Shown one piece after another: positions 14,533 through 36,139 of a stretch of DNA of 64,000 bases. The number at the start of each line of letters is the position of its first letter. The stretch's first letter is position 1. The position numbers were made by a program, and so were the translations under genes. Under the pieces are notes generated by a model. That model saw only the letters and a program-made list of their open reading frames with translations. It ran no database searches and was not told the origin of the DNA. The DNA is from Marinoscillum pacificum (GTDB lineage Bacteria > Bacteroidota > Bacteroidia > Cytophagales > Cyclobacteriaceae). The stretch covers positions 124,001-188,000 of the forward strand of contig NZ_JAMZMJ010000010.1 of NCBI RefSeq assembly GCF_024714495.1. The letters run 5' to 3'.

Positions 14533-14562
14533 AAATACAAACACTCCTGCACTACATATTCC

Positions 14563-14570: not shown

Positions 14571-14648
14571 AAGAAACATTAACAAAAAGAAACATCAACA
14601 GAGCTTTATCCTAGATAGAATTTCAAAGACACATGAGATAAATCAGAG

Positions 14649-14726
14649 ATGTATAGAGCGAAGTTTAACCGATTAAAACAAGTAGGACGAGTTTTTGTCC
14701 TACTGTTTTCACAGCAGAAATTATAA
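14649..14726 (+). CDS. Possible 25-residue micro-protein
   Basis: An ATG-initiated ORF begins MYRAKFNRLKQVGRVF and ends LLFSQQKL. It is basic at the N-terminus with a short hydrophobic C-terminal part, like a small membrane-associated or leader peptide. It lies wholly inside the candidate intergenic transcript and overlaps its first hairpin. Coding is uncertain: the ORF is short and there is no clear ribosome-binding site. Conservation in relatives would decide it. Confidence 0.3.
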   Translation: MYRAKFNRLKQVGRVFVLLFSQQKL

Positions 14727-18184: not shown

Positions 18185-18814
18185 TTACAAATATGGGGTA
18201 ATATCTCCCAGACCCTCTCTAACAACCTCTGGTAAATCTCCGGTACAATCAATTACTGTACTAGGCTGGTTATTTCCATATCCTCCATCAATAATGATGT
18301 CCACCAGGTTTTCAAAGTCATCATATATCAAACTTGGATCCGTGGTATAATCCACTATTTCATCTTCGTGATGGATGGAAGTTGTAATAATTGGGTTACC
18401 CAGAAACTTCACAATATCTCTAGGAATGTTGTTATCCGGCACTCTAATACCGATCGTTTTCTTCTTGACATTTAGAATCTTAGGCACCTTACTGGACGAT
18501 TCTAAAATAAATGTAAAAGGACCCGGGAGACACTTTTTCATCAATTTAAACGTCGGTGTATCCACATGTTTAGCATATTCCGACAATTGACTTAAGTCGT
18601 AGCATATAAACGACAGGTTGATATTCTTTCCTTTAATGCCCTTAATAAGTTTTAAACGCTCCAGCGCCTTATTATTAAAGATATCACAACCCAAACCATA
18701 GACTGTATCCGTTGGATAAATAATCAAACCACCGTCTCTAATGACTTCAACAATTTGAAGAATTTTATCCTCTTCAGGATTTTCCGGGTATAATCTGATG
18801 AATTCCGCTCCCAT
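18185..18814 (-). CDS. L-threonylcarbamoyladenylate synthase-type protein (Sua5/YciO/YrdC family)
   Basis: 209 residues forming one YrdC-type domain. The hallmark [17 protein letters not shown] near the N-terminus, a KGIKGKN nucleotide-site segment and [18 protein letters not shown] near the C-terminus are present. The family makes threonylcarbamoyl-AMP for t6A at position 37 of ANN-decoding tRNAs. The length suits the single-domain YciO/YrdC forms rather than the longer Sua5 form, and whether this is the true TsaC or a YciO-like paralogue cannot be settled here. It is the first gene of a two-gene unit with the WbqC-family gene. Confidence 0.85.
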
Positions 18815-18940
18815 GACTTGCTACTTAAGTGAAAAAAAACGCCGTTCAAACACAATTACATTCTTTTTACTCAGATGTTGCCAATATGTTATGTCTCGAC
18901 GACTGAAATTTATTTAATTTGCCACGAATTTTTAAGAGAT

Positions 18941-19990
18941 ATGATTAGAGTTGTCATTGTGGGCCTGGGTAATTGTTCAAGTTCATTCATTCAGGGAATA
19001 GAATTTTACAAAAACGAGCAAGAAACCAAGGGTTACGTAAGAAGGGAAATTGGTAACTACCTAATAAAAGACGTAAATGTTGTTGGAGCAATCGATGTAG
19101 ACAAACGTCTCATTGGCAAAGATGTTTCTGAAGCAATTTTTGCTGGAAGTAACACAGCTGAGAAATTTACAGATGTTCCTAATTATGGAGTAGAAGTAGT
19201 TAAAGGGCCAGTATTAGATGGTGTTGCTCCGCATATGCATAACTCCTTTCAGGTAGATGACAACCAACAACCAGTTGACGTAGCGGCATATCTTAAAGAA
19301 GTCGAGGCAGAATTTGTAATATGTTACTTACCTGTGGGTAGTGAAAAGGCTGCGAAATTCTACGCAGAAGAAGCATTGAAGGCAGGAGTAGGCTTTATCA
19401 ATGCAATCCCAGTATTTATTTGTTCTACCCCTGAGTGGAGCAACAAATTCAAGGAAGCAGGACTCGTTTGTGCTGGTGATGATATCAAATCTCAGTTTGG
19501 TGCTACCTACCTAAACAGAGTTTTAGTAGAAAGCTTAATGTACAGAGGATTCAATATCGACAATTTGTATCAACTAAATGTTGGTGGAAATACCGACTTT
19601 GAAAACATGATTGATGAGTCTAGACTTCAATCTAAACGTATCTCCAAAACATCAGCCGTATCCACTTTATTTAAAGAAGGTGAAGCGCCTGCATTGAGAA
19701 TAGGACCTAGTGACTATGTTCCTCACCTGAAAGATGCCAAAATCTGTTACATCAATGTAAATGGAACTCAATTTGGCAACCAGAAATTTGAGTTAGAACT
19801 AAAACTTAAAGTTGAGGATAGTCCCAATAGTGCTGGTGTAATGCTAGATGTAGTGAGATTAGCCAAAGTAGCGAAAGACAAAGGACTGTCAGGAAACATT
19901 CCTGTAGTATCTGCATTCGGATTTAAATCTCCAGCTGATAAATTCAGCGAAACTGATATCTTAAGAAAGATTGACGACTTCCTTTCTTAA
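18941..19990 (+). CDS. ino1: Inositol-3-phosphate (myo-inositol-1-phosphate) synthase
   Basis: 349 residues from the ATG at 18941. The frame is open upstream to 18875, but MIRVVIVGLGNCSSSFIQG is the natural start of the NAD-binding domain, so I use 18941. The enzyme isomerises glucose-6-phosphate to inositol phosphate, the first committed step to inositol lipids. The length fits the short prokaryotic/actinobacterial type. Family segments seen are GAIDVDKRLIGKD, CYLPVGSEKAA, GDDIKSQFGATYLNR and the lysine-rich region around SRLQSKRISKT. It converges on the serine palmitoyltransferase gene with a shared hairpin terminator and begins the putative inositol-sphingolipid locus. Confidence 0.92.
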   Translation: MIRVVIVGLGNCSSSFIQGIEFYKNEQETKGYVRREIGNYLIKDVNVVGAIDVDKRLIGKDVSEAIFAGSNTAEKFTDVPNYGVEVVKGPVLDGVAPHMHNSFQVDDNQQPVDVAAYLKEVEAEFVICYLPVGSEKAAKFYAEEALKAGVGFINAIPVFICSTPEWSNKFKEAGLVCAGDDIKSQFGATYLNRVLVESLMYRGFNIDNLYQLNVGGNTDFENMIDESRLQSKRISKTSAVSTLFKEGEAPALRIGPSDYVPHLKDAKICYINVNGTQFGNQKFELELKLKVEDSPNSAGVMLDVVRLAKVAKDKGLSGNIPVVSAFGFKSPADKFSETDILRKIDDFLS

Positions 19991-20010
19991 GTTGCTGTGC
20001 GCAACTTAAG
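19986..20010. terminator. Shared hairpin between ino1 and the serine palmitoyltransferase gene
   Basis: CTTAAGTTGC and GCAACTTAAG form a perfect 10-bp stem with a 5-base loop. The hairpin contains the stop codons of both convergent genes and is followed by ATTTT on the forward strand. It probably ends transcription in both directions. Confidence 0.7.
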
Positions 20011-21199
20011 ATTTTAATGGAATTTCTAATCTTTTGTATTCAGCATAAATTTTATGAATAGCCTCATCAATTTGCTCCTTTGAGTGAGTTGCCATGAGGC
20101 TAAATCGTATAAGTGTATCTTCAGGAGCTACTGCTGGAGAGATAATTGGATTGACAAAAACACCTTTTTCTAGAAGACTTGTAGTCAATTGAAAAGTCTT
20201 CATGTAATCACGAACATAAATAGGAATGATCGGAGACTCGGACGCTCCTGTATCGAACCCTAAGTCGCTTAAACTCTTCTGAGCATAGTGTGTATTCTCC
20301 CATAGCTTCAATCTGTGTGAATCATCTGACTCTATGATATCCAAAGCAGCCAAAGCAGCAGCACAAGATGGAGGCGTAATGCTTGCACTAAAAATCATTG
20401 ATCTTGAATGATGCTTCAAGAAATTAATGGTGTCACTATCACTAGCAATAAATCCGCCCAAAGACGCTAAAGATTTACTGAATGTACCTCCAATCAAATC
20501 GACCTTATCAGTAAGGCCAAAATGTGAAGGAGTTCCCGCGCCATGATCACCAATTACGCCCACAGCATGCGCACAGTCTGACATAACTACAGCTTCGTAT
20601 TTATCAGCTAGAGCGACTATTTCTGGAAGCCTGGCTAAATCACCTTCCATACTAAAGATACCATCTACTACAATCAGTTTAAAAGCATCTTTCGGACAAC
20701 GTTGGAGTTTCTTCTCCAACGACTCCATGTCATTATGTCTAAACTTGAGCTTATTTGCAAGAGATAATCTAGCACCTTCGATAATAGAAGCATGAACAAA
20801 CTCGTCCATGATGATAAAGTCATTTCGAGTAGTGATACAAGGAATAACACCCAGATTAACTTGAAAACCTGTACTGTACATCAGGACAGCTTCTTTCCCT
20901 AAAAACTTAGCAAGCCTATCTTCTAGTTCTTCATGGATATCTAACGTACCATTTAAGAAACGTGAACCTGCACAGCCAGCACCATACTTACTCATTGCCG
21001 CTCTTCCAGCCTCTACAACCTTAGGATGATTGGTAAGACCTAAATAACTGTTAGAGCCAAACATCAAAACATCCTTACCATTCACTTTTACGATGGTACC
21101 TTGTTCTGATTCAATTTTTCTAAAAAAAGGATAATAGCCTAGAGCTTTTACACGCTGTGGCTCCGTATATTGATTGGTTCGTTCCCGTAATCTACTCAT
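20006..21199 (-). CDS. spt: Serine palmitoyltransferase-type alpha-oxoamine synthase
   Basis: 397 residues from the ATG at 21199; an in-frame GTG at 21223 is possible, but the ATG start (MSRLRERTNQYTEPQRV) fits the usual N-terminus of Bacteroidota serine palmitoyltransferases. This PLP enzyme condenses serine with a long-chain acyl thioester to 3-ketosphinganine. The PLP lysine is in GGTFSKSLASLGG (about K242), the stacking His in DEFVHASII and the Asp/His of SDCAHAVG. FGSNSYLGLT and GCAGSRFLNGTLDIH match the serine-palmitoyltransferase branch rather than BioF or Kbl, and the sphingolipid-like neighbours support that. A related amino-acid specificity (glycine, alanine) cannot be excluded. Confidence 0.88.
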   Translation of the reverse strand: MSRLRERTNQYTEPQRVKALGYYPFFRKIESEQGTIVKVNGKDVLMFGSNSYLGLTNHPKVVEAGRAAMSKYGAGCAGSRFLNGTLDIHEELEDRLAKFLGKEAVLMYSTGFQVNLGVIPCITTRNDFIIMDEFVHASIIEGARLSLANKLKFRHNDMESLEKKLQRCPKDAFKLIVVDGIFSMEGDLARLPEIVALADKYEAVVMSDCAHAVGVIGDHGAGTPSHFGLTDKVDLIGGTFSKSLASLGGFIASDSDTINFLKHHSRSMIFSASITPPSCAAALAALDIIESDDSHRLKLWENTHYAQKSLSDLGFDTGASESPIIPIYVRDYMKTFQLTTSLLEKGVFVNPIISPAVAPEDTLIRFSLMATHSKEQIDEAIHKIYAEYKRLEIPLKS

Positions 21200-21298
21200 A
21201 CTTATATAAGTGGCAATTCCCACGTCTTCCTCCCCTACAGCTTAACCGAAGAAATCCACAAAACAGAAAATTAATTTGCAAATAAACATTAAATAAAC

Positions 21299-22033
21299 TC
21301 AAATATTAAGATTCAAAGAGTTCTTTAAATCTTCTGGATTGTCAACATCATTCCAAACACTTCCTACAACATCTACAGTAGTTGCTTCTTGGTCGTTAAT
21401 TAATTGACTAACCATATTCGATATGGTGTATTTCTTTTGATCAAAACACAATTTCAAAGTTTGAAATACTTGAGGCTTTAAAAAAAAAAGTCCAGTATCG
21501 TATCTATTATATACCTCAATCATCTTGCCTATTGATTGGATATGTCCTGCATCGTCCACCAAAACTCTAGTTACATCTTCAATATCGATATGCGAATTTT
21601 GTTCAGACGGAACATCTACCGCTAAACAGAGATGTTTATTCACTTTTCGGTTTTCAATTGCTTGTTGAAAAGCTGGTATAAAACCCTGATCAAACACATG
21701 ATCACCCATTGTAAGAAAAAATCCTTCTGATTTCTGTGACTTAATCCAATCCTCAGTGACACTCACTGAAAACCCATTTTCCAAATCATACCTTTCATTA
21801 TGAACTGCATCTATAAGCACATGATGCTTACCACGCAACTCTACTAACTTTTCACGAATAGGGTCTGGATTATGGCCCGTGACCACACAAAACTCTTTAC
21901 AGCCATTTTGCTTAAAGAGCATAATGTGTCGTTCCAAAAGAGAGATACCGTTAATTTCTAATAATGATTTAGGCTTACCTGTGTCTAGACGACTGTTTTT
22001 TCCAGCAGCAAGGATGACGCACTGATTGTTCAT
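21299..22033 (-). CDS. Nucleotidyltransferase, candidate CTP:inositol-1-phosphate cytidylyltransferase
   Basis: 244 residues with a single GT-A-type nucleotidyltransferase fold: the signature VILAAGKNSRLDTGKPKSL, the acidic GDHVFDQGF (metal site) and VDDAGHIQSIGK. The family uses CTP or another NTP to activate a phosphorylated alcohol such as phosphocholine, a sugar phosphate or inositol-1-phosphate. In archaea and some bacteria, an N-terminal domain like this fused to a CDP-alcohol phosphotransferase makes CDP-inositol. Here ino1 and a CDP-alcohol phosphotransferase are both near, which makes CDP-inositol the likeliest product (inference). It shares an orientation with the serine palmitoyltransferase gene, about 100 bases downstream of it. 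A good promoter sits almost at its start. Confidence 0.72.
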   Translation of the reverse strand: MNNQCVILAAGKNSRLDTGKPKSLLEINGISLLERHIMLFKQNGCKEFCVVTGHNPDPIREKLVELRGKHHVLIDAVHNERYDLENGFSVSVTEDWIKSQKSEGFFLTMGDHVFDQGFIPAFQQAIENRKVNKHLCLAVDVPSEQNSHIDIEDVTRVLVDDAGHIQSIGKMIEVYNRYDTGLFFLKPQVFQTLKLCFDQKKYTISNMVSQLINDQEATTVDVVGSVWNDVDNPEDLKNSLNLNI

Positions 22034-22040
22034 AGGCCAT

Positions 22041-22067
22041 CAAAATTAGAATAAGTTAGATAATCAA
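22041..22067 (-). promoter_or_regulatory. Promoter of the nucleotidyltransferase/SPT operon
   Basis: On the reverse strand a TTG (22065-22067) is followed after 16 bases by TAATTTTG (22041-22048), a full match to TAnnTTTG. The -7 box ends 7 bases before the ATG, so the transcript should have almost no leader. Confidence 0.6.
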
Positions 22068-22120
22068 CTCAATAGTCACAGGACTAAATTATTTTAGCAC
22101 AAGACAATCATCATACCAGA

Positions 22121-23242
22121 ATGAATTTTCAAATTTCAGAAGTCACCTCAAAATCTGATCTGAAAGCATTTATAAAATTCCCTTTCAAGCTATACAAGGG
22201 AGTATCTTCATATGTTCCTCCTTTGCTAAGTTTTGAACTTAGCACTCTGGACCCTAAGAAAAACCCAGCTTTTGAGCAGGCTAATGCCAAGTATTGGGTT
22301 GTTAAAAAGGACAAAGAGATTGTTGGCAGAATAGCAGGAATCTTATTACATCAAGAATTCGAGGAGAAGAAGTTAGTTCGTTTTGGATGGGTAGACTTTA
22401 TTGATGATAAAGAAGTTTTCACTTTACTCATGGATGCAGTCATTGAATGGGGGAAAAATCAAGGTGCCCAAAGCATGCATGGGCCTATGGGATTCACGGA
22501 TTTGGATTTTGAGGGAGCCTTAATTGAAGGCTTTGAACACACTGCTACACAGGCTACGATATACAATGCTCCCTACTATCAAAAACATTATGAAGATTTT
22601 GGATTTGAGAAAGCTGTAGACTGGATAGAAGGAAGAGGCAATATTCCAGGCAAAACTTCAAAAAAACTGGATCGAATAGCTTCTATTTGCGAAAGTAGAT
22701 TCAACCTGAAAGCTGTTAAATTCAAAAAAAACAAGGACATTAAACAATATGCTCCTGCCGTTTTTAACCTACTCAATAAATCATATAGTCATTTGTATGG
22801 CTACTATCCGTTATCTTCAAAACAGGTCGACTATTACATCAAACAATATTTTGATTTTATTAAGAAAGAGTTCATTAGCATAATAGTTAATGACCAACAT
22901 GAAGTTGTCGGAATGGCTATTGCCCTTCCCTCCATTTCGGAGGCATTAAAAAAAGCTAATGGTCATCTCTTTCCCTTTGGCTTTATTCACATTTTAAAAG
23001 ACTTTAATAAAAACACCTTGATGGATCTTTTCCTTATAGGTGTTGATCCTGAATATCAAAAACTAGGTGCTCATGCTATTATATTTAATGACATCCTTTC
23101 CAATTTTATTAAGTTAGGCGTCAATCAAATTGCGACAGGGCCGATGCTAGAAACTAATAACGGTGTCATGAATTTATGGCATGAATTTGATGCCGAGGCA
23201 ACTGGCACATTAAGGAGACGGTGTTACATCAAGAATATTTAA
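22121..23242 (+). CDS. GNAT-like acyltransferase, candidate bacterial ceramide synthase
   Basis: 373 residues. The middle and C-terminal parts have a GNAT-like character (residues about 240-365: IIVNDQHEVVGMAIALPS, FLIGVDPEYQKLGAHAII). A strong central segment begins at about residue 121 (GPMGFTDLDFEGALIEGFE) and continues with IYNAPYYQKHYEDFGFEKA. This pattern recalls the roughly 370-380-residue proteins that include the bacterial ceramide synthase of Caulobacter, which N-acylates (keto)sphinganine; I am comparing from memory. Position supports it: the serine palmitoyltransferase gene is close by, and a reductase, dehydratase, ketosynthase and ACP follow on the same strand, 11 bases or less apart. 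It could instead be another N-acyltransferase. Confidence 0.65.
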   Translation: MNFQISEVTSKSDLKAFIKFPFKLYKGVSSYVPPLLSFELSTLDPKKNPAFEQANAKYWVVKKDKEIVGRIAGILLHQEFEEKKLVRFGWVDFIDDKEVFTLLMDAVIEWGKNQGAQSMHGPMGFTDLDFEGALIEGFEHTATQATIYNAPYYQKHYEDFGFEKAVDWIEGRGNIPGKTSKKLDRIASICESRFNLKAVKFKKNKDIKQYAPAVFNLLNKSYSHLYGYYPLSSKQVDYYIKQYFDFIKKEFISIIVNDQHEVVGMAIALPSISEALKKANGHLFPFGFIHILKDFNKNTLMDLFLIGVDPEYQKLGAHAIIFNDILSNFIKLGVNQIATGPMLETNNGVMNLWHEFDAEATGTLRRRCYIKNI

Positions 23243-23253
23243 CTCATTCACAT

Positions 23254-24015
23254 ATGATAAAAAGAGCCTTGATTTTAGGCGGTTCAAGTGGTATAGGAAA
23301 AGCTACAGCAAAAAAGGTCGCCGCATCTTTTGATGAAATCATTATCGTTCATAGAGACAGGAAACAAGGAGTTTCCGAATTACATCAATTCACTGATGAA
23401 ATTTCATCAACCTACAATTGCACTTTTAAAACTTTCAATATTGACGCGACTGAGAAAGAAAAAGCTTTAGAGGTAGTAGGCAATGACACAGAACCTTTTC
23501 AATTGGTCCTGCATGCGATAACGAGAGGAAATCTTGGCAGCCTTGACATCACCAGTGATAAACCATTGAGAAGTGATGATCTAAAGCTAACAATGGATGC
23601 CATGTGCTTTAATGTACAAATGTGGAATGAAATCCTGGTCTCTTCTAAACTATTAACTTCAGAGAGTAGATTCATCACTCTAACATCAGAAGGAAGTACA
23701 AGATCATGGCCTGGCTATGGCGCGGTAGGTATGGCCAAATCATCACTCGAAACACTCACAAAATATTTGGCAGTGGAAATGAGCTCACACGGAATACGAT
23801 ACAATTGTATCCATGCTGGTGTGACAGATACCCCTTCATTGAGATTAATCCCTTCCTATAATGAATTGGTAGATTTTACAAAAAAGAGAAACCCTTATAA
23901 GCGACTTACTAAACCAGAGGATGTAGCGAACGCCATTTATTTATTAATTCAACCCGAAGCCAGCTGGATTAATGGTGCTGTTATTCATGTAGATGGAGGG
24001 GAACACCTTGTATAA
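23254..24015 (+). CDS. Short-chain dehydrogenase, FabL/FabI-like enoyl-ACP reductase candidate
   Basis: 253 residues from the ATG at 23254 (an earlier in-frame start would overlap the upstream gene and add a meaningless extension). The cofactor motif GGSSGIGKATAKK is clear. The catalytic pair is spaced Y-x6-K (YGAVGMAKSS), the spacing of enoyl-ACP reductases FabI and FabL, not Y-x3-K as in FabG. The end, INGAVIHVDGGEHLV, is also like FabL. Probable role: the last reduction in a dedicated acyl-chain extension. An alternative is reduction of 3-ketosphinganine or 3-ketoceramide, a step the locus otherwise lacks. It is directly followed by the dehydratase gene. Confidence 0.72.
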   Translation: MIKRALILGGSSGIGKATAKKVAASFDEIIIVHRDRKQGVSELHQFTDEISSTYNCTFKTFNIDATEKEKALEVVGNDTEPFQLVLHAITRGNLGSLDITSDKPLRSDDLKLTMDAMCFNVQMWNEILVSSKLLTSESRFITLTSEGSTRSWPGYGAVGMAKSSLETLTKYLAVEMSSHGIRYNCIHAGVTDTPSLRLIPSYNELVDFTKKRNPYKRLTKPEDVANAIYLLIQPEASWINGAVIHVDGGEHLV

Positions 24016-24016
24016 A

Positions 24017-24475
24017 ATGAAAGAGAAAATACCACAAATCCTTGAACTACTCCCCTACAGTGATCCATTCTTATTTGTGGATGAAATCAAAGAATTGGAT
24101 GAGTCCAGAATAATTGGCACGTATACCATTAAAAAAGATGAGCACTATTTCAGAGGACATTTTAAAGAGAAACCAATTGTTCCTGGAGTGATCATTACGG
24201 AAATCATGGCTCAAATAGGCTTGGTTTCATTTGGAATAGGATTGTTATTAAAACAATTTGATGAGCACCCTGAAAAAGGGAATAAAGAAATTCTACCAGT
24301 CTTCAGCAATTTTCACGTAGAGTTTGTGAATGCCGTTGGTCCAGGAGCTAAACTTACCATCGAGTCAAAAAAGGTCTTTTTTAGACTAGGTAAATTATTT
24401 TGCAAAGTAAAGTGTATGCACGAGGAGACCATTGTTGCTAGAGGTGAACTTGGTGGAGTGTTAATTAGTAAATAA
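24017..24475 (+). CDS. FabZ/FabA-like (hotdog) 3-hydroxyacyl-ACP dehydratase
   Basis: 152 residues from the ATG at 24017, one base past the stop of the reductase gene. The core has FRGHFKEKPIVPGVIITE then IMAQ, with the catalytic His (GHF) and Glu (ITEIMAQ) both present. The conserved HRxPFLLVD near the N-terminus is changed to YSDPFLFVDEI; that first His is not catalytic. It should dehydrate 3-hydroxyacyl-ACP in the small fatty-acid module; its ketosynthase starts at once after its stop. A different acyl specificity from the housekeeping FabZ is likely. Confidence 0.8.
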   Translation: MKEKIPQILELLPYSDPFLFVDEIKELDESRIIGTYTIKKDEHYFRGHFKEKPIVPGVIITEIMAQIGLVSFGIGLLLKQFDEHPEKGNKEILPVFSNFHVEFVNAVGPGAKLTIESKKVFFRLGKLFCKVKCMHEETIVARGELGGVLISK

Positions 24476-25756
24476 ATGAATCAAAAAAGAGTAGTAATTA
24501 CTGGGATGGGAGTAGTTGCTCCAAACGGAGTTGGTATTTCCGAATTTTCAGAAGCGTTATATAGAGGGAAATCAGGAATTAAATTCCAGGAGGACTCAGC
24601 CAATCAAAACTACAGATGTCAGGTGGCAGGAGTACCGACAGTTTCCGAAGAATACATTGATAAATATTTCCCCAATATTTACAAAGAAGTAATAAAAAAC
24701 AATGCCATCAAGTACGGGTGTTTAGCAGGCCTTGAAGCGTGGGCAAATGCGGGACTTTCACCTAGCAAAGAAAGAAAATCAAGATGGGGAATGGTATTTG
24801 GAGCTGGCGCTCCTGGTTTAGATGAATTTATCATTGACCCAATTGAGAAGCTAAATATTGGAAAGTCTAGAACGGTTGGCACCACTCTGGTTCCACAATC
24901 TATGACTAGCGGCACTGGGGCATACCTAAATCAACTTTTAGGATTAGGAGGCCCCGTAATCAGCAATTCATCTGCCTGCAGTACAGGGAGCGAAGCGATT
25001 TTAATAGGTTATGAACAAATACAATTAGGCAAAGCAGATATAATGCTGTGCGGAAGCACAGAAGGAATAGGTAGATTTATTTGGGGAGCGTTTGACACCA
25101 TGAGAATTCTCGTACCCAACTCAAATGACGCTCCAGAAAAAGCAAGCAAACCTATGAGTCAGAAATCATCTGGATTTGTACCGTCTGGAGGTGCTGGTAC
25201 TCTTATTCTGGAAACTTTGGAATCTGCACAAGCTAGAGGTGCTAACATACTAGCTGAATTAGTAGGTGTATCTCAAAACTGTGGTGGTCAGCGTAATGGA
25301 GGCTCTATGACTGCTCCAAATTCTGAAGCAGTTATTGAATGTATAAAATCTGCCATTAATCATGCCAATATTGATGCTTCCGAAATTGACTTAATATCTG
25401 GTCATCTTACTTCTACAATGGCAGATCCAATTGAAATCGAAAACTGGGTAACAGCACTAAATTTACCTCCTGATAAACTACCAGCAATCAATACTGTGAA
25501 GTCCATGATAGGTCACGCTATCTCAGCCGCTGGATCTATTGAATCTGTAGCTTGCATCATTCAGTTAACTGAAGGTTTCATTCATAAAAACATCAACATT
25601 GATGCCGATACCATACATGAGAAGATTAAGAATATTTACCCAATAGAGAAAATACCATTAGAAACTGAGCGAAGAGAAATTCAAACAATAATTAAGTCTA
25701 ATTTTGGATTCGGTGATGTAAATTGCTCGCTAATTTTCAGCAAATTCAAGCCGTAA
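24476..25756 (+). CDS. Beta-ketoacyl-ACP synthase (FabF/KAS II type)
   Basis: 426 residues, normal for a KAS II. It begins RVVITGMGVVAPNGVGI. The catalytic triad is intact: Cys in SNSSACSTGSEAI, the first His in SGHLTSTMADPIE and the second His in VKSMIGHAISAAG, with a late SNFGFGDVNCSL in place of the usual SFGFGGxN. It extends acyl-ACP with malonyl-ACP. The gene abuts the dehydratase and is followed 2 bases later by the acyl carrier protein, so a dedicated chain-building module is likely. The unusual GHLTST and GDVNC sequences suggest a divergent, specialised enzyme rather than the housekeeping FabF. Confidence 0.87.
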   Translation: MNQKRVVITGMGVVAPNGVGISEFSEALYRGKSGIKFQEDSANQNYRCQVAGVPTVSEEYIDKYFPNIYKEVIKNNAIKYGCLAGLEAWANAGLSPSKERKSRWGMVFGAGAPGLDEFIIDPIEKLNIGKSRTVGTTLVPQSMTSGTGAYLNQLLGLGGPVISNSSACSTGSEAILIGYEQIQLGKADIMLCGSTEGIGRFIWGAFDTMRILVPNSNDAPEKASKPMSQKSSGFVPSGGAGTLILETLESAQARGANILAELVGVSQNCGGQRNGGSMTAPNSEAVIECIKSAINHANIDASEIDLISGHLTSTMADPIEIENWVTALNLPPDKLPAINTVKSMIGHAISAAGSIESVACIIQLTEGFIHKNINIDADTIHEKIKNIYPIEKIPLETERREIQTIIKSNFGFGDVNCSLIFSKFKP

Positions 25757-25758
25757 TT

Positions 25759-26013
25759 ATGGAATTAAAAGAAATACAGGAGAAACTCACACCAATTATC
25801 AGTAAGTACTTACCTGATGAAGTAAAAGTAGAAGAAATCACTCCAGAAAAGGATATTCTGAAAGATTTACAAATTAACTCCGCTTATTTAATTGACATCA
25901 TTATTGCAATAGAAGAAGAATTTGATATTGCAATAGATGATGACTCCATTGCCAAGATAAACACCGTTCAGGAAGCAGTGGACGTTATTGTCAGCAAAAT
26001 AAATGAAAAGTAG
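25759..26013 (+). CDS. Acyl carrier protein of the small fatty-acid module
   Basis: 84 residues from the ATG at 25759 (the longer frame from 25723 would run into the ketosynthase gene). It is acidic and helical, with the phosphopantetheine attachment Ser expected in LQINSAYLIDIII, in place of the usual GADSLDTVE motif. The rest, EEEFDIAIDDDSIAKI, suits an ACP. It probably carries the intermediates of the reductase, dehydratase and ketosynthase encoded before it, or delivers the acyl chain to the ceramide synthase candidate. In Caulobacter a dedicated ACP lies in the sphingolipid locus, a parallel arrangement. Confidence 0.85.
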   Translation: MELKEIQEKLTPIISKYLPDEVKVEEITPEKDILKDLQINSAYLIDIIIAIEEEFDIAIDDDSIAKINTVQEAVDVIVSKINEK

Positions 26014-26031
26014 AAGGTGATTACTTTCTAC
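26010..26031. terminator. Bidirectional hairpin between ACP and delta-4 desaturase-like genes
   Basis: GTAGAAGGT and ACTTTCTAC pair over 9 bp (one G-U) with the loop GATT. It overlaps the stop codons of both convergent genes, and a short T-rich run follows on the reverse strand. Confidence 0.6.
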
Positions 26032-26954
26032 CTCTTCACCCGCGAATTCAACCCTATATTTTTCTGAGTAAGAAAGTGATAAATCACCTTCGTCCAGGAA
26101 TTGTAAGAATGCAATCCTTCATAATGCTTGCTGGCTTTTTCTCTCAAGACTGGCAATCTAGAACCTGGAACATTTGGAAAATCATGATGCTCATTGTGGT
26201 AGCCTACGTTGAAAACCAACTTATTTAATGGCCCATAATAGGAATATGTCTCCTGACCAGGCTTAGTAACATAGTGCTCAGACACAAAGTGACCACCCAA
26301 GGGATGAAGACCAGTTGCTAATATCACAGATAAAGCCATGTATAGCACACCTATCCAACCTACAAAATTCAGATACGTTAAAACAAAAATGATTTGGACC
26401 ACTAAGTTGACAAACTCCCATTTATTGGGTTTTCTTGGATAAACCATCAATGGCCGTAAAGCGTAAAAGAGAATCTGAAAAAACATCCAAATAAATTTCC
26501 CTACAAAACCTCTAAATAGCTTCGCTTCCAATCGTGTAGGAAGATCTGTATCAATTTTATCTTCTCCTTGTTTCCAATGGTGTTCAAGGTGATATGCTTT
26601 AAAAGCCATTGCAAATGGAAAAACCAAGGGCAGATTGACCAAAATGGCTAGCCAATTGTTTTTCGCTTCTGATTCAAAAGCAAGGTTATGGGATAATTCA
26701 TGAATGGCTAAAACCAGGATATGCACCAATGTAGTACCTACTAAAAACAACACTGCGATGAACCCCCAAATATTAGACGGCACATAAAATGACACTGCTA
26801 ACTGTAACAGTGAGACAAGCAAAACTTTGTACTTCAGACCAGCATCTATACCCATTAACTCCTTCACCTCAGGCACTTCTTTCAAAATCTGCTTTCTACG
26901 CTGAAAATGAGGCTCTCGTCCTTCCTCCCAAATGAAATCTTTAGTAGCTCCCAT
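26028..26954 (-). CDS. Sphingolipid delta-4 desaturase-like membrane protein (DEGS type)
   Basis: 308 residues. From memory it resembles eukaryotic dihydroceramide delta-4 desaturases (DEGS1) over nearly its full length. The N-terminal part DFIWEEGREPHFQRRKQIL echoes the DEGS start (DFEW..., RRREIL). The His boxes are HELSH (85-89), HLEHH (122-126) and HNEHH (253-257); the last is followed by DFPNVPGSRLP, with SYYGPLNKLVFNVGY before it, as in DEGS. Four to six membrane segments are expected. It would introduce the 4,5-double bond into a ceramide backbone, changing a dihydroceramide to a ceramide. Most bacterial sphingolipids are saturated, so this is notable. A -7 box lies 4 bases upstream of the ATG. 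Confidence 0.85.
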   Translation of the reverse strand: MGATKDFIWEEGREPHFQRRKQILKEVPEVKELMGIDAGLKYKVLLVSLLQLAVSFYVPSNIWGFIAVLFLVGTTLVHILVLAIHELSHNLAFESEAKNNWLAILVNLPLVFPFAMAFKAYHLEHHWKQGEDKIDTDLPTRLEAKLFRGFVGKFIWMFFQILFYALRPLMVYPRKPNKWEFVNLVVQIIFVLTYLNFVGWIGVLYMALSVILATGLHPLGGHFVSEHYVTKPGQETYSYYGPLNKLVFNVGYHNEHHDFPNVPGSRLPVLREKASKHYEGLHSYNSWTKVIYHFLTQKNIGLNSRVKR

Positions 26955-26958
26955 CCAG

Positions 26959-26966
26959 CAAATTTA
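26959..26966 (-). promoter_or_regulatory. -7 promoter element of the delta-4 desaturase-like gene
   Basis: TAAATTTG on the reverse strand matches TAnnTTTG and ends 4 bases before the ATG. A TTTC lies 17 bases upstream, in place of the -33 TTTG. The transcript would be leaderless or nearly so. Confidence 0.55.
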
Positions 26967-27093
26967 AACATTGTACTTTAATTGAAAGCCAGAAGATTAA
27001 TTGATAGACAGCTAGTATATCTCCTATTTTTCATGTTCATCTTTAATATTCCAATACTGACATTAAAAAATTCTCAACGTTTAGTGATTTGAT

Positions 27094-27101
27094 TAACTTT
27101 G
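27094..27101 (+). promoter_or_regulatory. -7 promoter element of the desaturase/hydroxylase pair
   Basis: TAACTTTG matches TAnnTTTG and lies 16 bases upstream of the ATG at 27118. The -33 element is weak. Confidence 0.5.
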
Positions 27102-27117
27102 TGACAATCAATATTCT

Positions 27118-27990
27118 ATGCTTAGATACAAAGCCGATATTAAGACCTTAGTCTATCTAACTTTCACCTCATCCCTGATGCTGGTATTATTCTTTTATCA
27201 TGAGCAAATCCAATCTGCGATTTTGTGGATACTTTATGGTATAGAATTGGTTATGGCTATTACTGTGGGAGTTATTGTTCATAATCATCGCCATGTAAGC
27301 ATCTGGAAAAACAAAACCTTGAATAATCTCACGGACTGCTGGTTGACAGTTCTATACGGGTTCCCTGTATTTGGATGGATCCCCACTCATCTTCAGAACC
27401 ACCATACACATACCAACAAGGAACCAGATTATACGAAGACCTACGCATTCTCTGAAAAGAATAACTTATGGACTATCATTTACTATCCGATGTATAGTAG
27501 TGGGGTTCAACTGAAAGCTATCAGACGCTATCTTTCTGATTTGAGAACAAAAAATCGAGAAAAATTCATTGAACATATTTTCCAGATCATATCATTGGTT
27601 CTATTCGTTGTAGCTGCATTCATTATTGACTGGAAAGCGGCTATTCTCTTCGTGATAATCCCTCAACAAATCTCGCTCAACAGTGTATTAGTATTTAACT
27701 ACGTACAGCATATTCATGCAGATGAAGAATCAGAATACAATCACTCCAGAAATATAGAAGGCCCACTAAATACCTTCCTATTCAACAATGGACTGCATAC
27801 TGCGCATCACATAAAACCTCATCTACACTGGAGTCGTTTACCTGAATTTCATGCTGAAATCAGAGACAAAATCGATCCTAAATTGAATGAAAAAAGTCTG
27901 ATCTGGTATTTAATCAGGCAATACTTATTATCACCATTTAACTCTAAATGGTCTACTGTATCCATGCGCCTTACGCGTGAAAAAGTCTGA
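27118..27990 (+). CDS. Membrane fatty-acid desaturase/hydroxylase (copy 1)
   Basis: 290 residues with about four membrane helices and the three His clusters of membrane di-iron desaturases (PF00487-like): HNHRH (about 57-61), HLQNHHTHT, and a late NNGLHTAHH, with extra histidines HIHADE and YNHSRN between. The reaction is uncertain: either a double bond or a hydroxyl in a lipid chain, such as the 4-hydroxy group of phytosphingosine or the 2-hydroxy group of the N-acyl chain. It is followed 4 bases later by a paralogue. The two differ in the residues around the His boxes, so they may act on different positions or chains. Confidence 0.8.
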   Translation: MLRYKADIKTLVYLTFTSSLMLVLFFYHEQIQSAILWILYGIELVMAITVGVIVHNHRHVSIWKNKTLNNLTDCWLTVLYGFPVFGWIPTHLQNHHTHTNKEPDYTKTYAFSEKNNLWTIIYYPMYSSGVQLKAIRRYLSDLRTKNREKFIEHIFQIISLVLFVVAAFIIDWKAAILFVIIPQQISLNSVLVFNYVQHIHADEESEYNHSRNIEGPLNTFLFNNGLHTAHHIKPHLHWSRLPEFHAEIRDKIDPKLNEKSLIWYLIRQYLLSPFNSKWSTVSMRLTREKV

Positions 27991-27994
27991 TAAT

Positions 27995-28951
27995 ATGTTG
28001 AAATTAAAATATAAATCAGATCGCAAAACACTTGCAGCTGTTACCCTGTACTTTGTCAGCACAGGACTGATCTGGTACTATTTCCCTCAATTGCACATAG
28101 CACTTCAGATCTTTGCAGTTATTTTTTTATGTATGCTCTCCTTTATATGTGCTGTGATCGTTCATAACACGGTCCATGTACCTATATTTAGAAGTAAGCG
28201 AGCAAACAAGGTGTTCCAAATCGTACTTTCTATGACTTATGGATATCCTGTAAGTCCGTTTGTGATAGGTCATAACCTAAGTCATCATCAACACACAGGC
28301 AAAGATCAAGACATTGCCAGAACGGATAAGTTAAGGTTTAAGTGGAATTTTCTCAATCAAGCATTGTTCTTCTTTGTAACCTCTGACAGCATCATGAAAT
28401 CTGAATGGCTATGGATCAAAAAAATGTGGAAAGAAGATCGAAGAAGCTGGGTTATTCAATATTTCTTGGAACTGATTGGTGTAGGCTTAATTAAGATTCC
28501 TCTTTTATTTTTCAATTGGCCAGTGACGTTATTAACTATTTGGCTACCGCACTTATGGGCTCAGTGGGGCATCGTAGGAACTAACTTTTGGCAACATGAT
28601 GGCTGTGATGTTTATCATGAATATAATCACTCCAGAAATTTTACCAACAAGCTGTTAAACTTTCTGGTATTCAACAATGGGTACCATGGTTTGCATCACA
28701 ATAATGCAACGCTACACTGGAGTGAACTACCAGAAATATATGAGAAAGAATTTGCTCCAAACATTCATCCAAATCTAAATCGAAACTCTTTATTCATGTA
28801 TTTGTGGGAATCTTGCGGGTGGCCTGGAAAAAGACTAGACTATTTGGGAAACCCAGTCGTTTTAGATAAAAACAAACAGGAAGATAGCCTGGAGTGGATC
28901 AACCACAAGGATTACAAAAAGAACATTGAGCACTTAGGAGCCGAAGTTTAA
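27995..28951 (+). CDS. Membrane fatty-acid desaturase/hydroxylase (copy 2)
   Basis: 318 residues from the ATG at 27995 (a GTG at 27977 would run into the upstream gene). It is paralogous to the gene before it: matching His clusters are HNTVH, HNLSHHQHT and NNGYHGLHH, and the EYNHSRN and THLHWSELPE-type stretches recur in both. It has a longer C-terminal tail (about 40 residues, rich in charge). It belongs to the same membrane di-iron family and has the same uncertainty between desaturation and hydroxylation. It precedes the CDP-alcohol phosphotransferase by 7 bases, so it is probably in the same operon. Confidence 0.8.
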   Translation: MLKLKYKSDRKTLAAVTLYFVSTGLIWYYFPQLHIALQIFAVIFLCMLSFICAVIVHNTVHVPIFRSKRANKVFQIVLSMTYGYPVSPFVIGHNLSHHQHTGKDQDIARTDKLRFKWNFLNQALFFFVTSDSIMKSEWLWIKKMWKEDRRSWVIQYFLELIGVGLIKIPLLFFNWPVTLLTIWLPHLWAQWGIVGTNFWQHDGCDVYHEYNHSRNFTNKLLNFLVFNNGYHGLHHNNATLHWSELPEIYEKEFAPNIHPNLNRNSLFMYLWESCGWPGKRLDYLGNPVVLDKNKQEDSLEWINHKDYKKNIEHLGAEV

Positions 28952-28958
28952 CTAAATA

Positions 28959-29888
28959 ATGAGTCAATTGAATTTCATCAGTAGACATTATCAGGAAGTT
29001 TTAGCCTCGATTAAGCAAATAGATGTAGAAGAAACATTTGATCTGTACTTCAGTCGTTTTTTCGGTTTGTTATTTGCCAGGCTAGGAAAAACACTCAATC
29101 TAACACCTACTCACGTAAGTTTTTTAAGCTTGGGTTTTGGTGTTCCAGGAGGTATTTTGCTTTACTGGCAAACAGATGTTTGGATTATTGCAGTTGCTTG
29201 CTTTCTTATAACGCTTGCAGGAATACTAGATAGCGCAGATGGCCAACTAGCCAGGATGACAGGAACGTCAAGTGAATTTGGCAGAATGGTGGATGGCACT
29301 ATTGACAACATGGTATTCATGGCATGCTACTTCGCAGGAATTGCCTATTTCAAAGACATCTATGGCCTTCTTACCATAGTTGCTATTGCAGGAGCCTCAG
29401 GTTTTGTTCATAGTGTCAAGTCTGCCATCTATGAATTCTATAAATGTGAATACCAGGAATTGATGGAAAACAAAGAAGAAAGCAGTATTCCATACACTTC
29501 CAAAGAAGTAGAAATTCAGGGGAACCGATGGTACCATAAGGTGATCTATTATATTATCGTAGATTACACCAACAAGCAATTGAAGTTTATAACCAGAAGC
29601 ATTGCTCAGCGCAAATCCATGCGAGAACTCACTACCAACTCCGAAATTTCCCGACGATTTTTAGAGCGTTACAGAGATTACAATAAATCTATGCTTAGCT
29701 GGTGGGCTATTTTCTGCGGCACCAACACTCATAGAACTGCCATAATGGTCTGCTCCCTTTTTGGCAGAATAGATATTTATTTCATTGCCAGTGTTGCCTG
29801 GACCATTTTCATTATTCCTATTTCCTTAATTCAAGCGAAGAGAGACAAAGAGCTTCTTCAAGAATTTTCATTTCAGAACGCCGCTTAA
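28959..29888 (+). CDS. CDP-alcohol phosphotransferase, candidate inositol-phospholipid synthase
   Basis: 309 residues with the full CDP-alcohol phosphotransferase signature at about residues 91-116: D-x2-DG-x2-AR-x8-G-x3-D-x3-D, seen as DSADGQLARM followed by GRMVDGTID. The family couples a CDP-activated alcohol or lipid to a second alcohol. With ino1 and a likely cytidylyltransferase in the locus, two routes are possible: CDP-diacylglycerol plus inositol phosphate, or CDP-inositol plus ceramide. It is somewhat longer than simple phosphatidylinositol-phosphate synthases, with a hydrophilic insertion around residues 155-240. It is last in the forward operon; the next gene converges on it. Confidence 0.85.
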   Translation: MSQLNFISRHYQEVLASIKQIDVEETFDLYFSRFFGLLFARLGKTLNLTPTHVSFLSLGFGVPGGILLYWQTDVWIIAVACFLITLAGILDSADGQLARMTGTSSEFGRMVDGTIDNMVFMACYFAGIAYFKDIYGLLTIVAIAGASGFVHSVKSAIYEFYKCEYQELMENKEESSIPYTSKEVEIQGNRWYHKVIYYIIVDYTNKQLKFITRSIAQRKSMRELTTNSEISRRFLERYRDYNKSMLSWWAIFCGTNTHRTAIMVCSLFGRIDIYFIASVAWTIFIIPISLIQAKRDKELLQEFSFQNAA

Positions 29889-30983
29889 TTAAGATTTAGG
29901 TTTCAATACTGCATTGGAGGTCAGCTGACAAAAACCCTTTAAGCCTTTCATGATCGCTTTTGCTTTGGTGGCCTTAACAGTTCCTGGCTGATATTCTACT
30001 GACGCCTTCGTCATTGGATCCAGTACTCGATTTGCAAACTCATTGACAATTGCCCGATCTTCTGTAATCATCACAACCTCCTGCTCAAAGTGATAACTGA
30101 TTAAGTCATAATTACTACTTCCGAAAACAAGTTTATCACTGTCAATTAGAATAGCTTTCAAATGAAACATCCCAGGATGATGAAAGAGCTTAAAGAACCC
30201 TTTATTACTCTGTGAAAGGAGGTAATCAAAAAACAAGCCTTTATTATTCTCCTTTGGAGAGATAATACTCACTTCTACACCAGATTCCGCTATACTCTGA
30301 AGCACTGGAAGCAAAGGCTCTGATACATAAGGAGAAATAACAGTAATTTTTGATTGAGCTTGTCTAAGAATGTCAAAAAACTCCTCATACAGACTTTTAC
30401 TTCTCACTCCATTGAGAAAAAATAATTGATGCCCTTTAAGATTTTCCTTGAGTGACTGGTTTGAACCGTTCCAAGTGGTTAAAAAATCCGCTCGGATTGC
30501 TTTGCCTATGGAAAGATCCTCCATCTCAAGCATCATATCATGCCACTCAAAATTGTGATCGCTAAAGTTTATCCCACCCAAGTATGAGTATCTACCATCC
30601 ACCACCATCATCTTTTTATGATTTCGAAGCGGATATCGAAGCATCAATGGGCCTGTAGGATTCACAAACTTGACCTTTATCCCATTCGCTTCAGCTTTAG
30701 CTAACAACCTATATGTATTCTTTACTTCTCCCTTAAAGTTTGGATCTCTCAAATACTTCAGCCCAAAGACAAAGTGATCACTGACGACAGCTTTTGAAAA
30801 AGAATCAATTATGAGTCGCTTATCTCTTGCAGGGCTTTGCAGCATCAAATGAATTAACTCCTCCCCTGCCGCATCTCCTTCAAAAGTCATTGCTTGCACA
30901 TAAAGAGATTCTTTAGCTTCTTGAGCTCTAACACTCAATGCTGCCATAAATTCACTCGCTCCTATTAATATTTGTGACTTCAT
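29889..30983 (-). CDS. Phospholipase D-family synthase with two HKD motifs (cardiolipin-synthase-like)
   Basis: 364 residues with both HxKx4D motifs: NHKKMMVVDGRYSYLGGIN (first, about residue 122) and FHLKAILIDSDKLVFGSSN (second, about residue 275). It lacks the N-terminal membrane segments of typical bacterial cardiolipin synthases, so it is probably cytosolic or peripherally membrane-bound. The family transfers phosphatidyl groups between lipid and alcohol. A role in lipid headgroup exchange, possibly on sphingolipids, is suggested by the location but cannot be shown. It is transcribed towards the CDP-alcohol phosphotransferase gene with no intergenic gap and shares a divergent upstream region with the PimA-like gene. 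Confidence 0.82.
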   Translation of the reverse strand: MKSQILIGASEFMAALSVRAQEAKESLYVQAMTFEGDAAGEELIHLMLQSPARDKRLIIDSFSKAVVSDHFVFGLKYLRDPNFKGEVKNTYRLLAKAEANGIKVKFVNPTGPLMLRYPLRNHKKMMVVDGRYSYLGGINFSDHNFEWHDMMLEMEDLSIGKAIRADFLTTWNGSNQSLKENLKGHQLFFLNGVRSKSLYEEFFDILRQAQSKITVISPYVSEPLLPVLQSIAESGVEVSIISPKENNKGLFFDYLLSQSNKGFFKLFHHPGMFHLKAILIDSDKLVFGSSNYDLISYHFEQEVVMITEDRAIVNEFANRVLDPMTKASVEYQPGTVKATKAKAIMKGLKGFCQLTSNAVLKPKS

Positions 30984-30996
30984 TATAAGACTTTCC

Positions 30997-31004
30997 TATT
31001 TTTG
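30997..31004 (+). promoter_or_regulatory. -7 promoter element of the PimA-like gene
   Basis: TATTTTTG matches TAnnTTTG. Its G is at 31004, so transcription should begin near 31010. That excludes the in-frame TTG at 31002 and supports the ATG at 31053. Confidence 0.55.
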
Positions 31005-31052
31005 GGGCATACAAGATTAATCAAATCCACTAATACCAAGACACAACCACCC

Positions 31053-32159
31053 ATGAAGATTGCTCAGGTTTGCCCATATGATTTTTCACGTCCTGGTGGG
31101 GTAAAAAACCATATTGAGTCTTTATCCAAATATCTGAGACAAATGGGTCACGAAGTGAAAATAATTGCCCCCAATCCCAATATTTCTGAGGAAGGTGTTT
31201 ATCATTTTGGAGGTAACAGGAGTCTAAACTTGGGCGGCACCAAAATTGATATCAACATCGCATTAGGAGCTGAACGAAAAGCACTAAAAAACTTCCTTCG
31301 AAACGAGCAATTTGACGTTATTCATTTTCACACTTTTTGGAATCCAGCGCTACCATTTCAAATTAGAAGATTTAGTAGAGCAAAACATGTCACCACCTTT
31401 CACGACACACCAAAAAGCCAATTTGTCGGAAAAAACATCATGCCAATAGCTGCTAAGGGTGTTTTCACATTAATGGATGCCATCATTTCAGTAAGTAAAA
31501 CACAAGCAGCATACATCAATAGGTTTTCAAAAAGAGAAATCTCTATCATTCCAAACGGTATAGATTTAGCGGAGTACCAACAACCTATTGAGCCAATAAA
31601 AAAGTATGACGATGGTAAATTCAACATCCTATTTCTCGGAAGGCTTGAAGAACGAAAAGGAATTTTGCACGCATTGGAGTCTTACAAAATTGTCAAAAAG
31701 GCAAACCCTGACATCCGACTAATCATTGCTGGAGACGGTGATGAGAGAATCCAAGCAGAAAACTTTATCAAAATACATGAACTACAGGATATTGAAATGC
31801 TTGGGTTTGTTTCAGAAAGCGAGAAACTTCGACTTTTAAAAACCGCTGATTTGTATATCGCTCCAGCACTTTTTGGAGAAAGTTTTGGAATCGTTTTGCT
31901 TGAAGCAATGGCTATGGGCACACCCATGTGTGGCTATGGAAATGAAGGCTACCTAAATGTGCTTTCAGAAAAACAACGTGCGTATTTCGCCTCACCGTAT
32001 GATACTGAAAGCTTAGCTGCTAAGACTTTGGCTCTGATTAGCGATCAGAACGAACAATCAAAAATGATTTTAGAAGGGAGTCAAGTTGTTCAACCATTTG
32101 ATTGGGAAATCTTGACAACTCAAATCGAGAATGTTTATAAACGCGTCCTAAAAAATTAA
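31053..32159 (+). CDS. GT4 glycosyltransferase, PimA-like
   Basis: 368 residues from the ATG at 31053. It shows the GT-B fold layout and GT4 signature: MKIAQVCPYDFSRPGGVKNH at the N-terminus, PNGID, FLGRLEERKGI, AGDGDE and GESFGIVLLEAMAMGTPM at the sugar-nucleotide site. From memory, the N-terminal start and the GESFGIVL segment closely recall mycobacterial PimA, which adds mannose to phosphatidylinositol. Next to the inositol-lipid genes, this suggests glycosylation of an inositol lipid or inositol phosphoceramide (inference). The similarity may instead reflect a general GT4 relation. Confidence 0.8.
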   Translation: MKIAQVCPYDFSRPGGVKNHIESLSKYLRQMGHEVKIIAPNPNISEEGVYHFGGNRSLNLGGTKIDINIALGAERKALKNFLRNEQFDVIHFHTFWNPALPFQIRRFSRAKHVTTFHDTPKSQFVGKNIMPIAAKGVFTLMDAIISVSKTQAAYINRFSKREISIIPNGIDLAEYQQPIEPIKKYDDGKFNILFLGRLEERKGILHALESYKIVKKANPDIRLIIAGDGDERIQAENFIKIHELQDIEMLGFVSESEKLRLLKTADLYIAPALFGESFGIVLLEAMAMGTPMCGYGNEGYLNVLSEKQRAYFASPYDTESLAAKTLALISDQNEQSKMILEGSQVVQPFDWEILTTQIENVYKRVLKN

Positions 32160-32271
32160 ATTAAGGTCATGTTTCGTTATGATTCTGCATTTAATCATAA
32201 CACTCCATAAATTAACAATTAGAAGAATCAAATTATTTTGTTTAGAGTGTCTGGTTAGTTCCGACACCAGA

Positions 32272-32279
32272 TAAATTTG
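32272..32279 (+). promoter_or_regulatory. -7 promoter element of the gene starting at 32316
   Basis: TAAATTTG matches TAnnTTTG. It overlaps the in-frame TTG that would otherwise be read as a start, so that TTG is not translated and the ATG at 32316 is the better start. Confidence 0.55.
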
Positions 32280-32315
32280 CAAGGATTAAACAAACAGGTA
32301 TTGACTAATTTATTA

Positions 32316-33179: not shown

Positions 33180-33251
33180 TCCTGTATCAAAGCAGACGGA
33201 AAACCTCTTCTAAGACTTATAGATACTCTAGATCAAAATACTGTAACTCTT

Positions 33252-33965: not shown

Positions 33966-34068
33966 CTAAAGAAATTAATCTTATTTAAGCTCAAAGATGT
34001 ACAGAATTACATTCTTAACTTATCTGAATAAATCATTAACCTATTGAAATAGGTATCTTCGCCACTGA

Positions 34069-36008: not shown

Positions 36009-36088
36009 TTAATTGCAATGCTCTATCCACTGCAATATTAACGAGAATCTCATCGCTCAAGCATTTAGCTAAAGGCTAATTTATATGG

Positions 36089-36096
36089 TAGTTTTG
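36089..36096 (+). promoter_or_regulatory. -7 promoter element of the ABC exporter gene
   Basis: TAGTTTTG matches TAnnTTTG, 43 bases upstream of the ATG at 36140. A weak TTTA is at the -33 position. Confidence 0.45.
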
Positions 36097-36139
36097 CCCC
36101 GGCTTTAATTACCCAATAAGCAGATAATCAAAAAACACA

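Follow-up and report, generated by a model that had tools for sequence, protein, structure and literature searches.

What kind of lipid does a bacterium make when an inositol-phosphate synthase, a serine palmitoyltransferase, a dihydroceramide-desaturase-like protein and a PimA-like glycosyltransferase are encoded side by side? The question is raised by a locus of Marinoscillum pacificum (genome of 6.4 Mb on 32 contigs), which we analysed in a window of 64,000 nucleotides corresponding to positions 124001-188000 of contig C1. Open reading frame (ORF) calls and family scans place fourteen genes fitting one lipid pathway between 18.9 and 32.2 kb of this window, and intact motifs were found in every locus gene whose motifs were examined. 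All gene families that the original prediction, made from the DNA letters, had named at 18941-32159 are present. We regard as the likely product a hexosyl inositol-phosphoceramide with a modified, that is 4-unsaturated or 4-hydroxylated, base. Gene families, motifs, linkage and co-occurrence are established here, and every substrate and product is inferred from them. Genomes and loci are denoted by G and L numbers, G000 being the own genome.

The ceramide part of the locus consists of two genes. SPT (20006..21223, minus strand) is a serine palmitoyltransferase of the Bacteroidota type that passes the NF047600 model (647 bits, cut-off 640) and has 3A2B as its match among solved structures (4.6e-152). 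SulA, the enzyme of sulfonolipid synthesis, is set apart from SPT by one active-site residue, Lys281 for Ala, 30 residues after the pyridoxal-phosphate (PLP) lysine (PMC9304779). In an ungapped comparison with 3A2B, with the place set by the numbering of that paper, the window SPT has Ala at this position, as do the own genome's second SPT and those of L006, L014, L016, L020, L021 and L065. The second gene, GNAT (22121..23242, plus strand), exceeds the cut-off of PF00583 (27.8 bits against 20.7). No NCBIfam model matched it, the search of solved structures gave no relevant relative, and its predicted fold returned tandem-GNAT matches that are generic in kind and do not fix the substrate. With relatives in as many as 101 of 149 genomes of the class, GNAT is a common protein whose name rests on linkage: the order SPT, CerR-like epimerase, GNAT is found in L016, L020, L021 and L065 (the epimerase Pfam identity was checked for L016 and L096), and SPT, GNAT and CerR adjoin one another in L114, L139, L163 and L166, 4 of 31 GNAT loci, most of them with flanks of about 1.5 kb. 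The Caulobacter ceramide pathway comprises the same three activities, SPT, CerR and an N-acyltransferase (PMC11087976). By its linkage with SPT and CerR, GNAT is a probable bacterial ceramide synthase. No CerR-like reductase is among the Pfam matches of the window locus; such a gene lies inside the clusters of four relatives and, in the own genome, adjoins the second SPT on contig C11, so that the C11 reductase would need to serve both SPT sets. This second SPT-CerR-GNAT triad (C11:1141081-1144367; L096 and beyond) suggests two ceramide pools.

The inositol head is represented by five genes. INO1 (18941..19990, plus strand) is an inositol-3-phosphate synthase that exceeds the cut-off of PF01658 (102 bits against 27), stays below that of TIGR03450 (370 bits against 638) and has 1GR0 as its best solved structure (2.7e-97), which makes it mycobacterial in type. 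Its longest ORF begins at 18875, and 18941, the start chosen in the original prediction, is preferable. NTP (21299..22033, minus strand) finds its best solved structures in 2XME (1e-18), 4JD0 (1.1e-18) and 4MND (9.1e-18), of which 2XME and 4MND are CTP:inositol-phosphate cytidylyltransferases and 4JD0 is named only as a nucleotidyl transferase. Its best NCBIfam model is the Thermococcales inositol-phosphate cytidylyltransferase NF041135, with a domain match of 129 bits (2e-37) that lies below the cut-off of 580 for the two-domain protein. NTP is probably a CTP:inositol-phosphate cytidylyltransferase resembling the archaeal enzyme, a likeness that points to a CDP-inositol route. The CDP-alcohol phosphotransferase (28959..29888, plus strand) passes PF01066 (45.2 bits, cut-off 22), has a complete DxxDGxxAR...GxxxDxxxD motif and is a probable CDP-inositol:ceramide (or diacylglycerol) inositolphosphotransferase. 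A phosphatidylinositol-phosphate (PIP) synthase of the BT1523 type was rejected for this gene, which scores 31.8 bits with the BT1523 model against a cut-off of 350; none of seven genomes exceeded that cut-off. The PLD-superfamily protein (29889..30983, minus strand; PF13091/PF00614, cardiolipin-synthase-like) carries both HKD motifs, recurs in L006, L014, L016, L020, L021 and L022 and keeps company with the inositol genes. GT4 (31002..32159, plus strand) finds its best solved structure in PimA (1.3e-43, residues 17-382), ahead of a second one at 9.6e-13, and is a probable inositol-lipid hexosyltransferase.

Of 295 genomes of the class, 11 have a homologue of the phosphotransferase, and the surroundings of such homologues bear on its donor substrate. 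Twelve stretches from ten genomes were compared around distant homologues, and three of them (L115, L118 and L119; phosphotransferase identity 26-33%) hold an INO1 match, belonging to another subfamily with 24-29% identity to the window INO1. HAD genes lie in all three, NTP-transferase genes in L115 and L119, and the MIPS of L115 was confirmed by Pfam; a match to the window NTP was found in none of the three stretches. In addition, an INO1 of another subfamily (26% identity; PF01658 over cut-off) occupies in L021 the slot of the window-type INO1. The phosphotransferase probably uses CDP-inositol, for which we see the best evidence in the way INO1 genes that are unlike each other, and in L115 and L119 also an unlike NTP gene, recur around one phosphotransferase family; nine of the twelve stretches lend this no such support.

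The remaining seven genes would shape the acyl chains and the base. The short-chain dehydrogenase/reductase SDR (23221..24015, plus strand; PF13561) is enoyl-ACP-reductase-like, with FabL as its best NCBIfam model, below cut-off, and has a Tyr-x6-Lys motif in all six clusters, which we take to be the spacing of enoyl reductases. It is followed on the same strand by a FabZ-like 3-hydroxyacyl-ACP dehydratase (DH; 23993..24475; PF07977), whose His/Glu motif (GHF...PGV...E) is conserved in six clusters, by a FabF-like ketosynthase (KS; 24476..25756; PF00109/PF02801), whose Cys, His, Lys and His are kept in all eight KS compared, and by an acyl carrier protein (ACP; 25759..26013; PF00550), whose pantetheine-site Ser is conserved in six clusters and which probably starts at 25759 rather than at the TTG at 25723 taken as the mechanical ORF start. 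There is no ketoreductase in the set, and this step would be supplied from elsewhere. The SPT of Rhodobacteria uses a special ACP (PMC9386255), and a dedicated ACP is therefore not foreign to sphingolipid synthesis. L016 and L020 have two adjacent ketosynthases at 12084-14685, both with intact active sites. FAD1 (27118..27990, plus strand) and its paralogue FAD2 (27977..28951, plus strand) belong to a membrane desaturase/hydroxylase family (PF00487), are found together in the window and G003 clusters and are candidate chain modifiers; a search of solved structures gave no relevant relative of FAD1 or of DES. A FAD1 homologue with 50% identity lies with DES in one 11.3-kb stretch of a Saprospiraceae metagenome-assembled genome (MAG; L039), which is possibly an independent link of these families. 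GNAT, SDR, the FabZ-like gene, KS and ACP follow one another on one strand, overlapping or only a few bases apart, as do FAD1, FAD2 and the phosphotransferase, and the genes of each run are therefore probably co-transcribed.

DES (26028..26954, minus strand) is similar to dihydroceramide delta-4 desaturases/C4-hydroxylases of the DEGS type, which is known from animals, plants and fungi: it exceeds the cut-offs of PF08557 (Lipid_DES; 46.8 bits, cut-off 23) and of PF00487 (99.6 bits), and all 83 homologues compared (83 of 83) keep its eight His-box residues. Judged by sequence, it may form either a double bond at position 4,5 or a hydroxyl at C4. Among sulfonolipids, bases with a 4-ene are known from chemical work. 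A search of 39 genomes, comprising the own genome and relatives, gave Lipid_DES in 4, against none of 14 named controls, and DES relatives were found at 547 or more loci in named bacterial and archaeal genome contigs. A sample of 80 of these loci carries labels including Saprospiraceae, Chitinophagaceae, Cyclobacteriaceae, Ignavibacteriae and Myxococcales. Most of the sampled loci are solitary, and on a quick tree the cluster-linked DES proteins (window, L006, L016, L020, L021 and L065, together with L022) group with an SH-aLRT of 77; the grouping of these seven rows takes one change and was equalled in 0 of 500 shuffles. DES is therefore a wider bacterial family that came to be included in this locus, perhaps once. 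Among 23 pattern matches examined as a viral outgroup there was no relative of DES. The DES of the MAGs L015, L017 and L051, labelled Rickettsiales, Thermoanaerobaculia and Verrucomicrobia, sits among Bacteroidota proteins, and L015 has the whole cluster; the taxon labels or bins of these three are probably wrong.

The conservation of the locus shows which of these genes belong together. A congener (G003) has the whole cluster in the same order, and three other Cytophagales-type contigs have the gene set without FAD1/FAD2. L016, L020 and L021 each hold INO1, NTP, SPT, the CerR-like gene, GNAT, SDR, DH, KS, ACP, the phosphotransferase, DES, the PLD protein and GT4. The cluster type is found in six genomes (G000, G002, G003, G039, G043 and G044); L015 and L006 are the same contig and were counted once, and the DES branches place L016 with L020 and L021 with L022 as close relatives. 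The recurrence of the set in the congener and three further contigs exceeds chance, the same order being found once and most of the set three times. Partial versions divide the locus into three modules, for the ceramide (SPT, GNAT), for the inositol head (INO1, NTP, phosphotransferase, PLD, GT4) and for acyl synthesis and desaturation (SDR, FabZ-like, KS, ACP, DES). A further congener (G002, locus L014) has kept INO1, SPT, NTP, GNAT, the phosphotransferase, PLD and GT4 and lacks exactly SDR-DH-KS-ACP-DES-FAD1-FAD2, with no Lipid_DES match anywhere in its genome, and in L065 SPT-CerR-GNAT-SDR-DH-KS-ACP-DES stand together. Ten genomes were chosen because they have or lack the cluster; six of them have both INO1 and GT4, and the other four have neither; the phosphotransferase follows the same split within the genus, is present in the clusters of G039, G043 and G044 and has no match in G075. 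From the module absences in L014 and L065 and the co-presence of INO1 and GT4, GT4 goes with the inositol head and DES with the acyl module. Overall, the reading of this DNA as a locus for a complex inositol sphingolipid is supported by the linkage of SPT and GNAT to the inositol genes, the Ala of SPT, the PimA-like gene that tracks INO1 and the Lipid_DES score over cut-off. We refine it in two respects: the locus is modular, and the head group comes most likely from CDP-inositol rather than from a phosphatidylinositol (PI)/AUR1-like route.

In the pathway that we propose, the dedicated KS, dehydratase, enoyl-reductase-like SDR and ACP would lengthen or supply an acyl-ACP, SPT would condense an acyl thioester with serine, the GNAT protein would add the second acyl chain, and the CerR-like enzyme encoded beside the second SPT would reduce the ketone. 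DES would then introduce the 4,5 double bond or the C4 hydroxyl into the base, with FAD1/FAD2 as possible hydroxylases or desaturases of a chain. Alongside these steps, INO1 would form inositol-3-phosphate and the nucleotidyltransferase CDP-inositol, from which the CDP-alcohol phosphotransferase would transfer phosphoinositol to the ceramide. The PimA-like GT4 would then place a hexose, perhaps mannose, on the inositol, and the PLD protein would carry out some further step. The acceptor ceramide, the DES product, the position of the desaturation or hydroxylation, the PLD step and the lipid itself are in this scheme deduced from sequence only.

Several observations weigh against this reading, whose main rival we judge unlikely. 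In the rival, two neighbouring pathways are present. One, consisting of INO1, NTP, the phosphotransferase, PLD and GT4, would yield a glycosylated PI, a glycerolipid like the mycobacterial phosphatidylinositol mannosides; the other, consisting of SPT, GNAT, the fatty-acid-synthase (FAS)-like set and DES, would yield a desaturated ceramide that is separate and has a different head group. PimA and PIP synthases take their names from glycerolipid substrates, and the phosphotransferase could use diacylglycerol: no SPT was detected in the stretches of L115, L118 and L119, where its homologue occurs with INO1 and HAD, and this is why a glycosylated PI stays the main rival. Of the 12 stretches around distant homologues, 9 have no INO1 match at all. 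The fold matches of the phosphotransferase are weak, none at E <= 0.001, with AF2299 and PIP synthases first, and do not fix the substrate. The two halves are separable, as the MAG of L065 (completeness unstated) has the ceramide and DES genes and shows neither INO1 nor a PimA-like gene. In addition, the NCBIfam matches of GT4 are all below cut-off, with BshA first, SPT passes NF047600 only just, the fold matches of GNAT are generic, its relatives are widespread, and a contiguous SPT run is absent at 27 of 31 GNAT loci with their mostly short flanks. On the other hand, SPT and GNAT stand among the inositol genes in all six genomes with the cluster type, and in L014 NTP remains between SPT and GNAT though the acyl/desaturase block is absent, which speaks against two separate pathways.

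Alternatively, DES could stand at the locus by accident and act on another lipid or a pigment, in which case the product would be a saturated inositol phosphoceramide of the ordinary kind. At 69 of the 80 sampled DES loci, some of them on short contigs, none of ten cluster genes was found nearby, and an SPT-model match above 361 bits is absent in 9 of 49 DES genomes; DES may therefore serve other lipids there. We nevertheless hold an accidental position to be improbable, as DES lies near ceramide genes in the window, L006, L016, L020, L021 and L065, these proteins and that of L022 form the group described above, and L014 is without DES and without the acyl module together. Co-occurrence of DES with SPT was dropped as statistical proof: an SPT-model match of at least 450 bits is present in 40 of the 49 DES genomes, and the contrast is weak because, in a sample of 198 genomes from the phylum, 147 have an SPT-model match at E <= 1e-130 (lowest listed 445.6 bits), and 141 of these 147 do not belong to the class of the window. 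A sulfonolipid of the capnine type, a class that Bacteroidota do make (PMC9304779), is highly improbable as the product and was rejected by the SulA/SPT residue test (Ala, not Lys, in the window SPT and six relatives' SPTs), while NF047600 is over cut-off and the inositol-phosphate genes would lack a role.

Inositol phosphoceramides are already known from Bacteroidota (PMC9246714, PMC8791184). In BT_1522-1526 of B. thetaiotaomicron, as here, an inositol-phosphate synthase and a CDP-alcohol phosphotransferase lead to inositol phosphoceramide, and a PI/AUR1-like route is the proved head-group route in that species (PMC9246714, PMC8791184). The window locus differs in that it adds SPT, GNAT, the FAS-like set, DES, the cytidylyltransferase and the PimA-like glycosyltransferase, and its phosphotransferase is not of the BT1523 type. 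A putative alternative cluster of gut Bacteroidetes (B. vulgatus and Prevotella) comprises MIPS, an NTP transferase, a CDP-alcohol phosphotransferase and a HAD protein, and a CDP-inositol donor was proposed for it and left unconfirmed (PMC9246714); according to Heaver et al., its carriers B. vulgatus and P. veroralis make phosphoinositol dihydroceramide (PMC9246714). MIPS, NTP transferase and CDP-alcohol phosphotransferase occur together in both, with the same CDP-inositol logic, whereas the window locus has sphingolipid core genes built in and no HAD gene among the Pfam matches of 20 ORFs from 17564 to 36008. L115, L118 and L119 look like this alternative cluster (PMC9246714), with an INO1 of the other subfamily. 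The Caulobacter set of SPT, CerR and bCerS with AcpR (PMC11087976, PMC9386255, PMC11324152) has its counterpart in SPT, an N-acyltransferase, a CerR-like reductase (in relatives' clusters or elsewhere in the genome) and a dedicated ACP. Caulobacter also has a DesA-family enzyme, which hydroxylates the amide-linked chain of its sphingolipids (PMC11324152). The locus differs in that its family matches include no acyl-ACP synthetase; KS, the dehydratase, the enoyl-reductase-like gene and a desaturase of the Lipid_DES type are present instead. By domain model and motifs, DES shares the Lipid_DES N-terminal domain and three His boxes with eukaryotic DEGS1/DEGS2 and differs from them in being bacterial and in lying within an operon-like locus. 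Mycobacterial PimA is the best solved-structure match of GT4 over nearly the whole length, with the difference that the acceptor of GT4 would be inositol phosphoceramide.

According to two recent papers, bacteria have no homologues of the eukaryotic enzymes of sphingolipid synthesis except SPT (PMC11087976), and their sphingolipids are in general simple for want of the glycosyltransferases and desaturases required (PMC12724326). This picture is hard to square with a Lipid_DES desaturase that belongs to a conserved locus for ceramide, inositol and hexose genes, or with the 547 or more loci that encode DES relatives. A ceramide d18:1/24:1 was detected in Sphingobacterium detergens by LC-MS (PMC12724326), so that unsaturated bases are not unheard of in Bacteroidota lipid data. 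Among the titles and abstract beginnings listed from the open-licence literature we found no report of a bacterial dihydroceramide or sphingolipid desaturase, and likewise no Lipid_DES-type desaturase in a bacterial ceramide operon, no built-in acyl module and no PimA-like step. The locus offers a defined gene set for probing a PI-independent route to inositol phosphoceramide and the origin of sphingosine-type bases.

Tentatively, and with less than even confidence, we suggest that bacteria could have, entirely of their own and within a single locus, a route to glycosyl-inositol-phosphoceramides that are desaturated or 4-hydroxylated and convergent with those of plants and fungi, in which a CDP-inositol:ceramide phosphotransferase would dispense with a PI intermediate and a probable aminoethylphosphonate set of the relatives could decorate the glycan. 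Glycoinositolphospholipids of Trypanosoma cruzi reportedly carry aminoethylphosphonate. The probable 2-aminoethylphosphonate set lies beside the PimA-like gene in L014 (12783-17781), in L016, L020 and L021 (about 1-7.7 kb) and at the start of L022; a Pfam run on L014 gave a phosphoenolpyruvate (PEP) mutase with a cytidylyltransferase domain, a thiamine-pyrophosphate enzyme, a class-V aminotransferase, a nucleotidyltransferase and LicD. PEP mutase scores 192-202 bits in G002, G039, G043, G044 and G045, in G045 on another contig, and the PEP_mutase matches of the own genome are one partial match of 53.5 bits and one of 26 bits. Outside the lipid locus, the window holds at 33252-47439 a run of glycosyltransferases (GT25, GT47, GT61 and GT2 types) with an ABC transporter protein and a Wzi-like protein; this region is probably a locus for a capsule, an O-glycan or another surface glycan.

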